Shown here piece after piece: positions 4,568 to 39,929 of a DNA stretch of 64,000 nt. The stretch lies in the NCBI RefSeq assembly GCF_008369915.1, contig NZ_VSRN01000001.1, positions 6,010,501 to 6,074,500 of the forward strand. The letters run 5' to 3'. Position 1 is the stretch's first letter. The number at the start of each line of letters is the position of its first letter. A model generated the notes under the pieces. That model made no database searches. It was not told where the DNA came from and saw only the letters and a program-made list of their open reading frames with translations. Origin of the DNA: Dyadobacter sp. UC 10. Lineage in GTDB: Bacteria > Bacteroidota > Bacteroidia > Cytophagales > Spirosomataceae. The position numbers were made by a program, and so were the translations under genes.

Positions 4568-4606
4568 TCTCTGGTTTTAATCTGTCATTTGAAAATATTG
4601 GTAACG

Positions 4607-6202
4607 ATGAAATTCAACTATAAAATCATAGGATTGAGCACTGTTTTCGCCCTGATGCTGTCGGGCTGCGAGCGGAGCTTCGAGGATCTGGAAAGAGATC
4701 CAAACCGCCCTGTAACGGCACCCGCGTCGCTCGTTTTAAAGGGTATTGAAATGGATATGTACGCCAATACCGGCACACCTTTCAGCGACGAAATGCGCTG
4801 GAACCAGTTTTATGCGATTAATTACAACTATTACGGTAATAACGAATACCAGTGGTCAACCTTTGACGACCATTATCCGACGCTGAAAAATGTCGTTAAA
4901 ATGGAAGAAGAAGCGAGGCGGGCCGGTGCGGCCGAGGTCAATGTTTATTCTGCGCTCGGCAAGTTTTTCAGGGCTTTTTTCATTGATCAAATGTCCGTTC
5001 GTGCCGGAGATCTTCCGATGAGCGAAGCGTTGCTGGGTTTAGAAAATCTGAATCCGAAATATGATTCGCAAAAGGATGTCTATATGCAGATATTGACGTG
5101 GCTTGACCAGTCAAATGCGGAAATGACGTCGCTGATCGCAGCGGGGGATACCAAGGTTACCGGCGATTTCTACCTGGGCGAAGACCTCAAAAAATGGCAG
5201 AAGGTGGTGAATGGTTTTCGTTTAAGGATGCTGATCCGTCTGAGCAAAAAGGAAAATGAAGCGGGTATGAATGTGAAGAGCCAGTTTGCAGAGATTATTT
5301 CCAACCCAGCCAAATATCCGATCATGGCGGGAATGGACGATAACCTGGAATTTGAGTTCAATATTTTTAACAAGTACCCGTCCAATCCCGACAATTTTGG
5401 TTTTGATGCTACCAGGCAAAATATGGCCCAAACTTATGTAGGCTTGCTCACCGCCCGGAAAGACCCGCGCGTGATGGTGACAACAGAGCCGGCAGGAGCA
5501 CAGCTGAAAGCAGGTAAACTGCCTTCTGATTTTTCGGCCTTTATAGCAGCCAGCTCCGGGGAAGACCTTTCGGATATGTCTAACAAAGCGGGGAAAGACA
5601 ATGGTGCTGGTTTTGCTCCGGGTGAATATTCATTTCAGAGCAGGTCGAGGTACTATTCCAATTACACGGGAGAAAATACGTTCATCATCGGGTATCCTGA
5701 ATTGTGCTTCAACATTGCTGAGGGGATTAACCGGGGCTGGGCAACCGGAAGTGCAGAGGACTGGTACAAAAAAGGTATCAAGGCTTCGCAGGAATTTTAT
5801 GGAGTAAAAACCGGCGCATTGACAATGACCTATTCCAAAACAGGCGGGCGCGCGTCGACCGACTTTGTCAATTATACGATCAATTTCAATTTTGACGAAT
5901 ACTACGCACAGCCCCTTGTGAAATATGCGGGTAACACGGTTGCGGGTCTGGAACAGATCGTCACGCAGAAGTATCTGGCATTCTTTATGAACTCTGGAAT
6001 GGAAGCGTATTTTAACTACCGCAGGACTGGTTTTCCAAAGTTTATGACTGGCGTTGGAACTGGAAATTCGGGCAGGATAGCGGTGCGCTGGCAATATCCT
6101 CTGACCGAGCGGACAACGAACGAAGCTAACTACAAAGCTGCTATTCAGAGTCAATTTTCGGGAAAAGATGATATTAATGACCTGATCTGGCTTTCAAAGT
6201 AA
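4607..6202 (+). CDS. SusD/RagB family nutrient-binding lipoprotein
   Basis: This is the partner of the preceding SusC protein: a surface lipoprotein that caps the SusC channel and binds the nutrient. I chose the ATG at 4607 over an upstream TTG at 4589 because it gives a clean 20-residue signal and a lipobox (MLSGC, Cys21). The 531-residue product begins ERSFEDLERDPNRP after the Cys, as in the SusD-like_2 subgroup. It has the TPR-like helical repeats of the family in the middle and a GYPELCFNIAEGINRGW motif typical of SusD proteins. It starts 39 bp after the susC stop and is surely co-transcribed. The substrate is unknown. Confidence 0.93.
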   Translation: MKFNYKIIGLSTVFALMLSGCERSFEDLERDPNRPVTAPASLVLKGIEMDMYANTGTPFSDEMRWNQFYAINYNYYGNNEYQWSTFDDHYPTLKNVVKMEEEARRAGAAEVNVYSALGKFFRAFFIDQMSVRAGDLPMSEALLGLENLNPKYDSQKDVYMQILTWLDQSNAEMTSLIAAGDTKVTGDFYLGEDLKKWQKVVNGFRLRMLIRLSKKENEAGMNVKSQFAEIISNPAKYPIMAGMDDNLEFEFNIFNKYPSNPDNFGFDATRQNMAQTYVGLLTARKDPRVMVTTEPAGAQLKAGKLPSDFSAFIAASSGEDLSDMSNKAGKDNGAGFAPGEYSFQSRSRYYSNYTGENTFIIGYPELCFNIAEGINRGWATGSAEDWYKKGIKASQEFYGVKTGALTMTYSKTGGRASTDFVNYTINFNFDEYYAQPLVKYAGNTVAGLEQIVTQKYLAFFMNSGMEAYFNYRRTGFPKFMTGVGTGNSGRIAVRWQYPLTERTTNEANYKAAIQSQFSGKDDINDLIWLSK

Positions 6203-6322
6203 TGCCGATGCATGTTGACAATGCCGTTGTCGGGGTCTCTATTGATGTTGTTTGATGTCTCTGTTGGTGTTCTCTTGCCCCTGTTGGTTTTGTCTTGCCC
6301 CTGTTGGTGTTGTCTTGCCTCT

Positions 6323-6382
6323 GTTGGTGTTGTCACCAACATTTGTACCAGCGCTGGTTAGGTCGTTGGTGACAACACCAAC
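6323..6382. repeat. Palindromic core A (three-hairpin element)
   Basis: GTTGGTG-ttgt-CACCAAC (6323-6340) is a hairpin. It is followed by the perfect 12-bp palindrome ACCAGCGCTGGT (6347-6358) and a second hairpin GTTGGTG-acaa-CACCAAC (6365-6382). The two outer hairpins are also reverse complements of each other, so the whole 60 bp can fold as one long imperfect stem centred on AGC|GCT or as three small hairpins. Confidence 0.9.
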
Positions 6383-6447
6383 GAAGGCAAGACAACATTA
6401 ACGAAGGCATCAACATACCAACGAAGGCGGAGAGGCCGATGAATAAC

Positions 6448-6480
6448 AAAAGAAGGAGCGACATTGCCGCTCCTTCTTTT
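6448..6480. terminator. Bidirectional terminator hairpin, copy 1
   Basis: A perfect 13-bp stem, AAAAGAAGGAGCG (6448-6460) with CGCTCCTTCTTTT (6468-6480), encloses a 7-nt loop. A-rich and T-rich flanks make it look like a bidirectional intrinsic terminator for convergent susD and polA. Confidence 0.75.
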
Positions 6481-6493
6481 GTTTGACGCCTAT

Positions 6494-6565
6494 GTTGGTG
6501 TTGTCACCAGCAATTGTCACCAACATTTGTACCAGCGCTGGTCAGTCGTTGGTGACAACACCAAC
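6494..6565. repeat. Palindromic core B
   Basis: Same design as core A, with the central palindrome ACCAGCGCTGGT at 6531-6542 and the right hairpin GTTGGTGACAACACCAAC at 6548-6565. The left side carries a 12-bp insertion (a partial duplication of TTGTCACCA), so this copy is less symmetrical. Confidence 0.85.
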
Positions 6566-6646
6566 GAAGGCAAGACAACACCAACGAAGGCAAATACCAA
6601 CGAACACAAGACAATATCAACGAAGGCGGAAAGGCCGATGAATAAC

Positions 6647-6679
6647 AAAAGAAGGAGCGACATTGCCGCTCCTTCTTTT
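6647..6679. terminator. Bidirectional terminator hairpin, copy 2
   Basis: Identical stem and loop to the copy at 6448-6480, offset by 199 bp. About 80 bp around it (from near 6628) repeat the surroundings of copy 1 almost exactly, so it arose by a direct duplication. Confidence 0.75.
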
Positions 6680-6692
6680 GTTTGACGCCCCT

Positions 6693-6752
6693 GTTGGTGT
6701 TGTCACCAACATTTGTACCAGCGCTGGTCAGGTCGTTGGTGACAACACCAAC
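6693..6752. repeat. Palindromic core C
   Basis: The 60-bp layout matches core A: left hairpin at 6693-6710, palindrome ACCAGCGCTGGT at 6717-6728, right hairpin at 6735-6752. It is nearly identical to core A except at the spacer base after the palindrome. Confidence 0.9.
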
Positions 6753-6819
6753 GAAGGCAAATACCAACGAACGCAAGACAATACCAACGAAGGCAAGACA
6801 ACACCAACGAAGGCAGTAA

Positions 6820-9693
6820 TCAATGCGCTTCCAGCCAGTTAGCGCCGACACCAATCCCCGTCTCCATTTTCACGATCATCGGAATCGCATTACGCATCAA
6901 ATCGTCTACTTTTTCTTTCAGGAAATCAATTTCGTCGCGGTGCACATCGAATACCAATTCGTCATGTACTTGCAGGATCATGCGCGATTTCAGCTTTTCT
7001 TTTTGCATGAAATCGTGGATATTGATCATCGCAACTTTGATCATATCTGCTGCCGAGCCCTGGATGGGAGCGTTAATGGCATTTCGTTCTGCATAGCCAC
7101 GGTTCGTCTGGTTGCCTGATATGATATCGGGCAGGTACCGTCTTCTTCCCAGGATCGTTTCAACATATTTTTTCTCACGCGCGTCGTTGACAATCCGGTC
7201 CATGTAACCTTTGACAGCCGGAAACTCTTCGAAATATGCCCTGATAATTTCGCTGGCTTCACCACGTGGTATACCAAGCCGCTGCGCCAGTCCAAATGCT
7301 GAAATGCCATAAATAATTCCAAAATTGACCATTTTAGATTTCCGGCGCATGTCGGATGTTACTTCTTCGAGGGGCACGCCGAAAACTTTGCTGGCCGTGG
7401 TTGCATGGATATCACGTCCCTGGTTGAATGCCTCGGTCATACTCGCGTCCTGACTGAATGCCGCCATAATACGCAGCTCTATTTGCGAATAATCGGCAGA
7501 GAGGATTTGAAAATCGTCGTTATCCGGTACAAATGCTTTTCTGATCTCCCGGCCACGCGGCGTACGGATCGGGATGTTCTGCAAGTTGGGGTTGGTAGAA
7601 CTAAGGCGGCCCGTAGCTGCAACAGCCTGATTATAAGACGTATGTATCCGACCGCTTTTTCTACTTACCAGCAGCGGTAGCGCGTCCACATAGGTCGATT
7701 TCAGCTTTTGCAGTTCGCGGTAATCGAGGATTTTCCGCGCGATCATGTGGTTATTTTCAAGATCGGACAGAATATCCTCGCCTGTCGCATACTGCCCGGT
7801 TTTAGTCTTTTTGGGCTTTTCGATCAGCTTCATTTTTTCAAATAAAACTTCTCCCAGCTGCTTCGGCGAGCTGATATTAAACGATTGGCCAGCCGCCTCG
7901 TAGATTTCGGACTCCGTTATACGTAAGTCGGATTCCAGTACAGCCGACATTTCCTTCAAGGCATTAATATCCAGCCTTACCCCCGTACTTTCCATCGAAG
8001 CTAGCACTTTGAGCAGCGGCATTTCAACGTCATAGTAGAGTTTTGAAGCACCCACCTTCGGAATTTCACGGGTAAAAATGGTATTGAGCTGCAAAGTAAT
8101 ATCTGCGTCCTCTCCGGCATATTGCGTGATCTCGGGAATTGAAACATCCCGCATCGTTCCTTGTTTTACGCCTTTTTTACCGATGAGCGAGGTAATTGAA
8201 ACGGGGTCATAGTTGAGATAGGACGCGGCCAGAATATCCATTCCGTGCCGCTTATCCGGTTCCAGGATATAATGGGCAAGCATGGTGTCGCTCATTTTTC
8301 CTTTTACCTCAATACCGTAATTTTTCAGGATAAGCAGATCGTACTTAATATTCTGGCCGATCTTTTCAATAGACTCATTTTCAAAAACTTCCCTGAAGTT
8401 TTCCACAATTTCCTGGGCTTTGTCGCGATCTGCCGGTACGGGGATGTAAAATGCCTCGCCAGCCAGGTAGGAAAAGGAAAGTCCGACAAGTTCGGCATCG
8501 ATCGTATCCAGGGAAGTTGTTTCGGTGTCAAAACAAAATGACTCCTGCAAACTGAGGTAATATGCCAGACTTTTCATTAGCTCCGGCGTATCGACCGTAT
8601 GGTAGCGGTGAAAAGTATTGTCGATTGTCCTTCGGGTAGTCGGTATCCTCAGGTCTTCGTACGCTTGCTCGGGTGCGTCGTCGTCGGCTATGCCTTCGCT
8701 AAGAATGGCAGGCTGTTTGCCGACTTCTTCCGTCGGGTTGCCAAACAAGTCGAGCTGTGCTTTCTGGGGCTTCGAGGCCGTGCGGGAAACCTGAGTGGTT
8801 TGGATCGGCTGACCGACTCCAAGTACGCGTTGTTTTAATGTTTTGAATTCCAGCTCATCGAAAAGCGCTACAATCTGGTCGGCATTCGCGGGACAAATGG
8901 TCAGATCTTCGGCGTCGAATGGTACCGGCACTTTAATATCGATCGTCGCGAGTTGTTTACTAAGGATCGCTTTATCGAAATTATCCCTGATTTTTTCACC
9001 CAGTTTACCTTTGATCTCGTCGGCGTGGGTGATCAGGTTTTCAATCGTGTCATATTCCTCTATCAGTTTCTGGGCCGTTTTCTCGCCTACACCAGGAACG
9101 CCGGGAATATTGTCGACCGCGTCGCCCATCAGGCCCAGAATATCAATAACCTGGTCAATGCGTTTGATCTGCCAGCGTTCGAGGATCTGGTCCACGCCAA
9201 GTACTTCGGCGCCTTTTCCCAGGAATGCAGGCTTATATATATACACATGCTGTTCCACCAACTGGCCGTAATCCTTGTCGGGCGTCATCATAAAGACTTC
9301 GAAGCCGGCATTGGATGCTTCCTTGGCGATGGTACCAATGATATCGTCGGCCTCATAACCGTCGAGTTCAAGTATGGGAATGCACATCGCTTTGAGCAAC
9401 CTTTTTACGAGCGGAATCGCAACGGTGATATCTTCCGGCTGCTCCTGGCGCTGGGCTTTGTATGCCTCAAACTGCACATGGCGGAAGGTGGGAGCTGCGG
9501 TATCGAACGCTACTCCGATGTGTGTAGGCTTTTCTTTTTGCAAAACTTCCAGCAGTGTATTTGTAAAACCGAATACGGCGCTGGTATTTAATCCTTTCGA
9601 AGTTATCCTCGGTGCTTTGATAAAAGCGAAGTGTGCACGGTATATCAACGCCATCGCGTCGAGCAGGAAAAGCTTATGAACGGGTTTATCCAT
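6820..9693 (-). CDS. polA: DNA polymerase I
   Basis: This 957-residue protein has all three domains of full-length Pol I, which removes primers and fills gaps in replication and repair. The N-terminal 5' nuclease (about 1-290) shows LLDAMALIYRAHFAF, ELDGYEADDIIGT and GVPGVGEKTA. The 3'-5' exonuclease domain appears intact, with FDTETTSLD and YAGEDADITLQL keeping its acidic residues, unlike Pol I homologues that lost proofreading. The polymerase domain has TGRLSSTNPNLQNIP, ADYSQIELR, MVNFGIIYG and the C-terminal QVHDELVFDV. It ends next to the repeat array and is convergent with susD. Confidence 0.98.
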   Translation of the reverse strand: MDKPVHKLFLLDAMALIYRAHFAFIKAPRITSKGLNTSAVFGFTNTLLEVLQKEKPTHIGVAFDTAAPTFRHVQFEAYKAQRQEQPEDITVAIPLVKRLLKAMCIPILELDGYEADDIIGTIAKEASNAGFEVFMMTPDKDYGQLVEQHVYIYKPAFLGKGAEVLGVDQILERWQIKRIDQVIDILGLMGDAVDNIPGVPGVGEKTAQKLIEEYDTIENLITHADEIKGKLGEKIRDNFDKAILSKQLATIDIKVPVPFDAEDLTICPANADQIVALFDELEFKTLKQRVLGVGQPIQTTQVSRTASKPQKAQLDLFGNPTEEVGKQPAILSEGIADDDAPEQAYEDLRIPTTRRTIDNTFHRYHTVDTPELMKSLAYYLSLQESFCFDTETTSLDTIDAELVGLSFSYLAGEAFYIPVPADRDKAQEIVENFREVFENESIEKIGQNIKYDLLILKNYGIEVKGKMSDTMLAHYILEPDKRHGMDILAASYLNYDPVSITSLIGKKGVKQGTMRDVSIPEITQYAGEDADITLQLNTIFTREIPKVGASKLYYDVEMPLLKVLASMESTGVRLDINALKEMSAVLESDLRITESEIYEAAGQSFNISSPKQLGEVLFEKMKLIEKPKKTKTGQYATGEDILSDLENNHMIARKILDYRELQKLKSTYVDALPLLVSRKSGRIHTSYNQAVAATGRLSSTNPNLQNIPIRTPRGREIRKAFVPDNDDFQILSADYSQIELRIMAAFSQDASMTEAFNQGRDIHATTASKVFGVPLEEVTSDMRRKSKMVNFGIIYGISAFGLAQRLGIPRGEASEIIRAYFEEFPAVKGYMDRIVNDAREKKYVETILGRRRYLPDIISGNQTNRGYAERNAINAPIQGSAADMIKVAMINIHDFMQKEKLKSRMILQVHDELVFDVHRDEIDFLKEKVDDLMRNAIPMIVKMETGIGVGANWLEAH

Positions 9694-12231: not shown

Positions 12232-12235
12232 ATGA

Positions 12236-12330
12236 AAAATGATTGAATGATTGAATGACCGAATGACTGAATGACTGAATGATTGAATACCAGCATTAAT
12301 ATTCAATCATTCAATCATTCGGTCATTCAA
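12236..12330. repeat. Inverted array of octamer repeats (candidate bidirectional terminator)
   Basis: Six tandem 8-bp units of the type GATTGAAT/GACTGAAT/GACCGAAT run from 12241 to 12288. After about 11 nt of loop the complementary units (ATTCAATC, ATTCGGTC) run back from 12300 to 12329. The two arms can pair over roughly 30 bp. The array fills the gap between the convergent oligopeptidase and metY stops, where a terminator is expected. Confidence 0.8.
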
Positions 12331-12332
12331 AA

Positions 12333-39823: not shown

Positions 39824-39929
39824 GGGAAAAGGGAGGAAGGAGAAAAGGGAGGAAGGAGGAAGGAAAAAATTTTATTCTTTATTCTCCTTTTTCCCTTTCC
39901 TCCATCCTCCTTACTCCATCCTTCCTTTT
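39804..39929. repeat. Purine/pyrimidine inverted array (candidate bidirectional terminator)
   Basis: A GGGA/GGAAGG-type purine tract (about 39804-39867, overlapping the end of the deaminase gene) is followed by AAAAAATTTTATTC and then the complementary pyrimidine tract (about 39885-39929, CCTTT, CCCTTTCCTCC type) that ends at slyD. The two arms can pair, giving a long hairpin, and the pure purine/pyrimidine strands could also form triplex DNA. It fills the gap between convergent genes. Confidence 0.75.

Follow-up and report, generated by a model that had tools for sequence, protein, structure and literature searches.

A cluster of inverted REP hairpins between the convergent susD and polA genes of Dyadobacter sp. 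UC 10 and its likely dependence on a RAYT transposase

Introduction

Most repetitive extragenic palindromic (REP) hairpins have been sorted by their GTAG and CGTC tags, and CGTC repeats have been reported from Bacteroidetes among other phyla (PMC3733652). The transposases associated with REPs (TnpAREP, or REP-associated tyrosine transposase, RAYT) have been split into subclasses, of which subclass 2.6 (RAYT group 5), with the motifs NH[LIV]H, WQ, and YIH[QN]NP, is mostly from Bacteroidetes; GT[AG]G is absent from the atypical secondary structures beside it, of which copies exist at other places of the host genome, and the REPs of this subclass required manual inspection and were termed atypical (PMC6006769). 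The array described here lies between a susD-like gene and polA in a 64,000-nucleotide stretch of the Dyadobacter sp. UC 10 chromosome (contig NZ_VSRN01000001.1, 6,010,501 to 6,074,500), hereafter the window. From sequence comparison we conclude that it is very likely a locally amplified cluster of REPINs, that is, of non-autonomous inverted REP pairs that depend on one RAYT gene elsewhere in the chromosome. The RAYT groups were reportedly named by Bertels et al. in 2017.

TnpAREP nicks at a CT beside the REP, and in Marinomonas an altered GTAG shifts the nick site predictably; similar guide changes failed in the E. coli and Stenotrophomonas systems (PMC8266576). Our literature search, made mostly without subscription journals, yielded nothing on REPs in Dyadobacter among the matches listed, where the Bacteroidetes RAYT subclass was treated only in PMC6006769. 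It yielded 0 papers on inverted or tandem repeats at convergent genes in Bacteroidetes, and the word Bacteroidetes was not found in the accessible text of PMC2817692 or PMC3686654.

Results

Structure of the array

The susD-like gene (+, 4589–6202) and polA (−, 6820–9693) are convergent, as judged from open reading frames (ORFs) and Pfam matches (SusD-like, DNA_pol_A). The unit repeated between them is the 18-nt hairpin GTTGGTG-TTGT-CACCAAC with GCC located 3 bases 5′ of the stem. Counted with at most 4 mismatches over 15 fixed bases, the array contains 17 units: 3 full and 4 half units in + sense and 3 full and 7 half units in − sense. The repeats lie where the original prediction had placed them, and its three palindromes proved to be convergent hairpin pairs formed by the six full units (Table 1). 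The 11 half units (half-REPs) retain the tag, 5′ arm, and loop, lack the 3′ arm, and are positioned on the outer side of the full REPs. Their spacing is mostly 20 bp, and 16 to 36 in places. Tandem Repeats Finder (TRF) reported 20-bp arrays in + sense at 6261–6334 (3.7 copies) and in − sense at 6371–6428 (2.9 copies), 6554–6627 (3.9), and 6741–6815 (4.0). The description of 20-bp units running in opposite senses to left and right was correct in outline; not every step is 20 bp, and the two types are not exact reverse complements, because − units read GCC-TTC-GTTGG and + units mostly GCC-YCT-GTTGG.

A hairpin of 39 bp, its arms rich in A and T, occurs twice, and 77 of the 80 bases of 6419–6498 are identical in the copy at offset 199, in agreement with the near-identity of about 80 bp noticed earlier. 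These two hairpins had been called terminators; the pattern scan for promoters and terminators scored 0 terminators at the array, and its three promoter-like sites were all within susD. The 39-bp hairpin went unscored, probably because its T run is inside the stem. The predicted folding energy of the + strand, −313.2 kcal/mol against a mean of −181.9 for 20 shuffles (z −21.6), bears out the potential of the stretch to fold back on itself. The array is not a CRISPR, as the original prediction had recognized: its units abut or share one spacer (cas genes were not searched for). At an open threshold, Rfam gave 27 matches, all below gathering scores and mostly to miRNA precursor models, which we rejected as hairpin look-alikes.

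The hairpins form a dispersed family

The family pattern GCC-N3-GNNGGTG-TTGT-CACCNNC is represented by about 100 copies in the chromosome. A search with the 18-mer at up to 2 mismatches found 104 copies in the 6.9-Mb genome, whereas the reversed-pattern control found 0; among the matches listed, the copies occupy at least 34 places, including the window's own. By our own crude gene caller, which underlies the intergenic counts and those of flanking-gene orientation alike, 104 of 113 core copies are outside called ORFs. The tag bases G, C, and C at −6, −5, and −4 have frequencies of 0.92, 0.94, and 0.95 in 111 copies, copies within one array not being independent; the other 5′ flank is little conserved, and the column make-up of the 111 copies gives a tag that is neither GT[AG]G nor CGTC.

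Inverted pairing holds for part of the copies only. The 79 neighbour pairs within 250 bp, with the same dependence within arrays, comprised 29 convergent (median gap 37), 22 divergent, and 28 tandem pairs. Classed by flanking genes, 16 of 24 REP clusters (the window's included) lie between co-directional, 6 between convergent, and 2 between divergent genes; 11 of 35 were left unclassed.

Among 74 distinct sequences of the 113 copies, 92.6% of cells were paired, only the outer five stem pairs being under test because the copies had been picked by the inner 12-mer. Cells changed on both stem sides numbered 72; shuffling gave 25.5, none of 500 shuffles reaching that value, and sliding the structure gave 23 at most. 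These compensatory changes argue for recognition of the element as a hairpin.

Half-REPs were found elsewhere in the genome as well. A copy of the 5′ arm occurred within 28 nt upstream of 30 of 96 tagged REPs and downstream in the same sense of 15 of 96, the downstream cases including tandem neighbours and the copies of one array again being non-independent; a looser count gave 31 upstream and 14 downstream of 95. The corresponding figures were 11 and 5 of 111 at the 80 named RAYT loci described below and 6 and 4 of 25 in five congeners, two loci being common to these sets. Where the pattern is clearest, the unit starts anew at the tag and halts in the loop or just beyond.

A RAYT gene flanked by the same hairpins

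When the genome was searched with Pfam Y1_Tnp, four matches emerged, one of which lies inside a REP cluster at 6702547–6703849. This RAYT (TnpAREP) gene, at G000:C1:6702937-6703449 and hence outside the window, encodes 171 aa from an inner ATG and has the motifs NHIH, WQ, and YIHRNP. It matched the NCBIfam REP-associated tyrosine transposase NF047646 with E 6.9e-22 and 77.9 bits. Both His residues and Tyr129 are invariant in an alignment of 24 relatives from the genus. The best solved relative of the profile is 4er8, a TnpAREP (E 2.9e-9), and the AlphaFold2 model (mean confidence, pLDDT, 87.3) had as its best fold match the same structure, a REP transposase in complex with its REP hairpin (E 1.9e-7). 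The reading frame (L014:1935-2954) continues upstream through a duplicated stretch of its own N terminus joined to a REP, and end pieces of the gene are duplicated among the nearby repeats (21 residues at 95%, 36 at 94%), the C-terminal 36 codons being repeated downstream.

Two of the remaining Y1 matches were rejected as partners. The protein at G000:C1:2953427 is IS200-type, and the 6 kb read around it is free of core repeats; that at G000:C1:1387565 is also IS200-type, with a small REP cluster about 2 kb off; and the 4.2 kb read around the fourth match, a 62-aa frame at 1546528, contained no core repeat. One IS200-type gene is followed by three copies of an ttacatcgctacgcgattt repeat unrelated to REP (L045:4554-5170), and downstream of the second lies an ORF that encodes a short peptide repeat (such as MTVHFSERNRASQIAGYS; L046:2919-3883).

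Distribution in the genus and an empty site

One genome per species was available for comparison. The strict pattern occurred in 8 of 48 genus genomes, our own included, with 1 control match over all. Copies numbered 109 in our genome (G000), 16 in G033, 10 in G041, 7 in G019, 6 in G034, 3 in G037, 2 in G002, and 1 in G007. The repeat is thus neither unique nor present in the same number in all relatives, as the neutral local duplication considered in the original prediction would have been. G000, G033, and G037 have a RAYT of at least 67% identity, as does G019, whose copy contains a stop; any RAYT match was found in 25 of 48. The repeat was present in 4 of 4 genomes with this RAYT and in 4 of 44 others (Fisher p 3.6e-4, related genomes not being independent). 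In all four, REPs flank the RAYT gene on both sides, the upstream ones of G037 being TTAT-loop variants. The same gene, apparently BlaI/MecI-like, is adjacent to the RAYT in three of the four and was not found at the G019 locus. Because this neighbour is shared, the RAYT seems to have been inherited in place. Across the family, the tagged pattern was present in 11 of 222 genomes (own included), with 92 copies in our genome, at most 11 elsewhere, and 0 for the control. Other RAYT clades of the genus (L053-L077) have flank hairpins of their own, such as GTTTGTG-TCCT-CACAAAC, CCGATTTGCAATCGG, and CCGTTTGTAACGG.

All 48 genomes had a match to the C-terminal 299 aa of PolA, and 30 of the loci were read. 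In the nearest relatives, G034 and G019 (98% identity), the polA gap measures 67 bp and 66 bp, respectively, and holds a single terminator-like hairpin but no repeat. Because these two sites are empty, the array of the window most likely arose on the branch of our strain, around an older terminator-like hairpin. The gap of G033 has its own repeats, REP-derived by eye and reported by TRF as an 18-bp array. The polA 3′ flank of other Dyadobacter (L134, L135, L137, L138, L139, L148, L149) contains unrelated tandem arrays that by eye are inverted, of the types TAGTCAAGnG, GGAGGAAAG, and TAGTTCGGAA, as if the site tended to grow arrays.

Hairpins beside RAYT genes of other genera

A named collection gave 286 RAYT relatives, and the best 80 were kept, spanning Dyadobacter, Arcicella, Pontibacter, Rufibacter, Mucilaginibacter, Taibaiella, Pedobacter, Flavobacteriaceae, and others, one Ignavibacteria bin and one Chlorobiota bin among them. 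A hairpin core recurred in the 600-bp RAYT flanks at 50 of the 80 loci, about seven of these having another hairpin kind, and on both sides at 37; of the controls, a single polA locus among 30 and a single random place of our genome among 200 had one, in no case on both sides. A GGNG-TNNT-CNCC hairpin with two more pairs was present within 1 kb of the RAYT at 52 of 80 loci and on both sides at 38 of 80. GCC preceded 119 of 162 such hairpins at the fixed 5′ distance, compared with 2 of 162 for the mirror control.

The hairpin apex follows the enzyme. Apex type required 18 changes on the RAYT tree against a shuffled mean of 28.9, with 0 of 200 as low, on a quick tree that holds 52 of 54 labelled rows and has 23 of 49 weak inner branches. 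The tagged TTNT-loop pattern occurred in 14 of 20 of these genomes, at 1 to 33 copies (control 0); six lacked it, some of which show other stems or tags.

Positions of the features and other arrays

The coordinates of the susD–polA gap are collected in Table 1. Two further inverted arrays were observed in the window. One, at 12232–12332, has 8–10 bp units (GAATGAnT on the left, the reverse complement on the right) between an S9 peptidase gene and a convergent ORF; the other, at 39824–39929, is purine-rich, with GGGAGGAAGGA on the left and CCTTCCTCC on the right, between convergent ORFs of 160 and 171 aa, the first of which was missed by our gene caller. Further inverted arrays of short units turned up in 400 kb sampled from the genome; they fall into no fewer than three sequence types (GGGAGGAAG, TTAGCTGTTGGC, and GAATGAnTGA) and lie at L168:11090-11226, L178:1255-1384, L163:13330-13435, L176:12710-12929, L169:7068-7233, L178:11667-11800, and L163:3648-3908. 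The 5′ arm of these seven is purine- or GT-rich, and they occur in convergent, co-directional, and divergent gaps alike; the search by gap class was noisy in long gaps, where shuffles scored too, and serves as a pointer only.

Table 1. Elements of the susD–polA intergenic array (positions in the window)
Feature	Positions	Strand	Basis
Whole intergenic gap susD/polA; repeats occupy about 6235 to 6815	6203–6819		ORFs, Pfam
Four half-REP units, 20–22 bp steps, first badly decayed	6235–6316	+	Repeat scan, unit count
Full REP 1; GCC tag 6317–6319, hairpin 6323–6340	6317–6340	+	Core match, unit count
Full REP 2; hairpin 6365–6382, tag 6386–6388; convergent partner of REP 1	6365–6388	−	Core match, unit count
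Two half-REP units	6391–6428	−	TRF, unit count
Terminator-like hairpin (39 bp), copy 1; similar one alone at the site in relatives	6445–6483		Hairpin scan, relatives' loci
Full REP 3; hairpin 6494–6511, one stem pair mismatched	6488–6511	+	Core match, unit count
Full REP 4; hairpin 6548–6565; partner of REP 3	6548–6571	−	Core match, unit count
Two half-REP units	6574–6627	−	TRF, unit count
Terminator-like hairpin (39 bp), copy 2, 199-bp duplication	6644–6682		Hairpin scan, offset alignment
Full REP 5; hairpin 6693–6710	6687–6710	+	Core match, unit count
Full REP 6; hairpin 6735–6752; partner of REP 5	6735–6758	−	Core match, unit count
Three half-REP units	6757–6815	−	TRF, unit count

Discussion

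The dispersed copies, inverted pairs, stem covariation, linked RAYT, and empty site in the two nearest relatives agree with one suggestion of the original prediction, a REP-like mobile repeat family. The REP hairpins have very probably been spread by a single-strand DNA transposase of the same chromosome, and the family probably belongs to RAYT subclass 2.6 (group 5). Comparison establishes the family, its dispersal, and its link to the RAYT; the course that follows, from cleavage to the order of events, we infer. As for TnpAREP of E. coli, the HUH/Tyr enzyme would bind the single-stranded REP hairpin, with the 5′ GCC serving as guide; a nick would be made beside the element, which would be copied or joined elsewhere. 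REP pairs would have come to flank the terminator-like hairpin that already stood in the susD–polA gap, and a 199-bp tandem duplication would then have doubled that hairpin together with a REP pair. Half-REPs would have accumulated on the outer side, each from the GCC tag or near it. Their form fits an enzyme or a polymerase that acts at the tag and fails at the hairpin, though they may also come from ordinary slippage.

Alternatively, the array could be a selected bidirectional terminator or insulator, inverted arrays at convergent gene ends being kept to stop read-through between susD and polA. A terminator-like hairpin is indeed present at the site in relatives, several of which have unrelated inverted arrays in the polA gap, and two more inverted arrays of the window are placed between convergent ORFs. 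We nevertheless regard selection for termination as unlikely, because the two nearest relatives suffice with a gap of 66–67 bp and one hairpin, and because two-thirds of the classed REP clusters lie between co-directional genes. The earlier proposal of an expanding bidirectional terminator is half supported: a putative terminator hairpin that stands alone in relatives is duplicated here with a REP pair. Any effect on the ends of susD and polA transcripts is probably a by-product; the long hairpins predicted for the transcripts make an effect of the array on RNA ends plausible, though none is needed.

If replication slippage and tandem duplication had made the array grow locally around a hairpin, without a transposase, it would be one of several kinds of inverted short-repeat array that grow at gene ends in the genus. 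This mechanism may well account for the 199-bp duplication and the half units; it predicts that units within one arm are alike, as are the + halves (GCC-YCT) and the − units (GCC-TTC), and array types of other kinds are present in our genome and, in other species, at this very site. It cannot account for about 100 copies at more than 30 places, the GCC tag at a fixed distance, the stem covariation, or the same hairpins flanking RAYT genes in other genera, and as a complete explanation we judge it quite improbable. The chance is slighter still that the array is a set of sites at which some host protein besides the RAYT recognizes the core GGTGTTGTCACC. The copies do have this 12-base core in common, having been selected by it, but the compensatory stem changes point to recognition of a hairpin and not of duplex sequence, the apex variants track the RAYT tree, and the strict motif is absent from 40 of 48 genus genomes. 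The data need no protein-binding-site array of the kind that had been suggested, beyond the RAYT's own binding.

Several observations weigh against a REPIN cluster mobilized by this RAYT. The protein falls just under the curated cut-offs (77.9 vs 80 bits for NF047646, the curator's naming threshold and not a family-defining trait, and 21.6 vs 23 for the second line), and its fold match to 4er8 is moderate (TM score 0.67, root-mean-square deviation 6.1). Convergent neighbours are not strongly dominant (29/22/28), and in one of five covariation measures, stem pairs with change on both sides, the value of 4 equalled shuffled data (3.9; 461 of 500). The GGNG-TNNT-CNCC definition was chosen after the flank-recurrence list had been viewed, and 28 of 80 RAYT loci, some cut by contig ends, have no such hairpin within 1 kb. 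G034, G041, G002, and G007 carry copies without a RAYT of at least 67% identity, so that the RAYT-repeat link requires loss or transfer in the past. Among these genomes, one per species, no event of transposition was observed. Finally, the genome has further inverted arrays for which no transposase is known, so that ordinary slippage may account for part of the local growth.

With the REPIN cluster as the preferred reading, a broader possibility can be put forward tentatively, and we would sooner doubt it than accept it: a third, GCC-guided REP class with the GGNG-TNNT-CNCC apex may exist across Bacteroidota and in single bins of Ignavibacteria and Chlorobiota, in which subclass 2.6 RAYTs would pick the nick site via GCC and half-REPs, which start at the tag and for the most part end in the loop or shortly past it, would be products of nick-primed copying aborted at the hairpin. 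The cross-complementarity rule for Marinomonas TnpAREP predicts that a guide ending in GCC would place the nick at GG or GC, such as in the closing GGC of each REPIN (PMC8266576). This rule may not carry over, because the attempts in E. coli and Stenotrophomonas failed (PMC8266576).

GCC-tagged REPs now have a definition (tag, spacing, apex, and stem rule) that is valid in many genera and follows the transposase tree, and a defined pattern makes them searchable. GCC offers a natural second guide sequence for probing how TnpAREP chooses its nick site. Our genome combines some 100 copies with an intact RAYT, and its near relatives have 6–7 copies and a RAYT that has a stop in G019 and was not found in G034; this set is well suited to following the rise and decay of a REPIN population.

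Systems of this REP/RAYT kind are already known. Like the REPINs, or bacterial interspersed mosaic elements, and RAYTs of E. coli, Pseudomonas, and Stenotrophomonas, the Dyadobacter family consists of dispersed short hairpins with a 5′ tag and inverted pairs, mostly intergenic; its cognate HUH/Tyr gene has these hairpins on both sides, and hairpin and transposase co-vary. It differs from them in its tag, GCC located 3 nt from a 7-bp stem instead of GT[AG]G, and in its tandem half-REPs. The hairpin ends of IS200/IS605 elements share the same enzyme fold and, by analogy, a guide sequence 5′ of the hairpin; here no element with left and right ends was defined, and the genome's two IS200-type Y1 genes are not surrounded by REPs. 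Unlike the CGTC repeats, which are tabulated without transposase-gene association (PMC3733652), the GCC repeats are associated with a transposase. Compared with the printed consensus of subclass 2.6, NHIH and WQ are shared and YIHRNP has R for Q/N, one residue off, and the REPs fit the description of that subclass in being without GT[AG]G (PMC6006769). Whereas REPs have been called species-specific in sequence (PMC6006769), the Dyadobacter apex and tag are common to many genera. Judged by the parts of the published descriptions considered here, this family stands apart in its GCC tag, in an apex common to many genera, and in its arrays of half-REPs.
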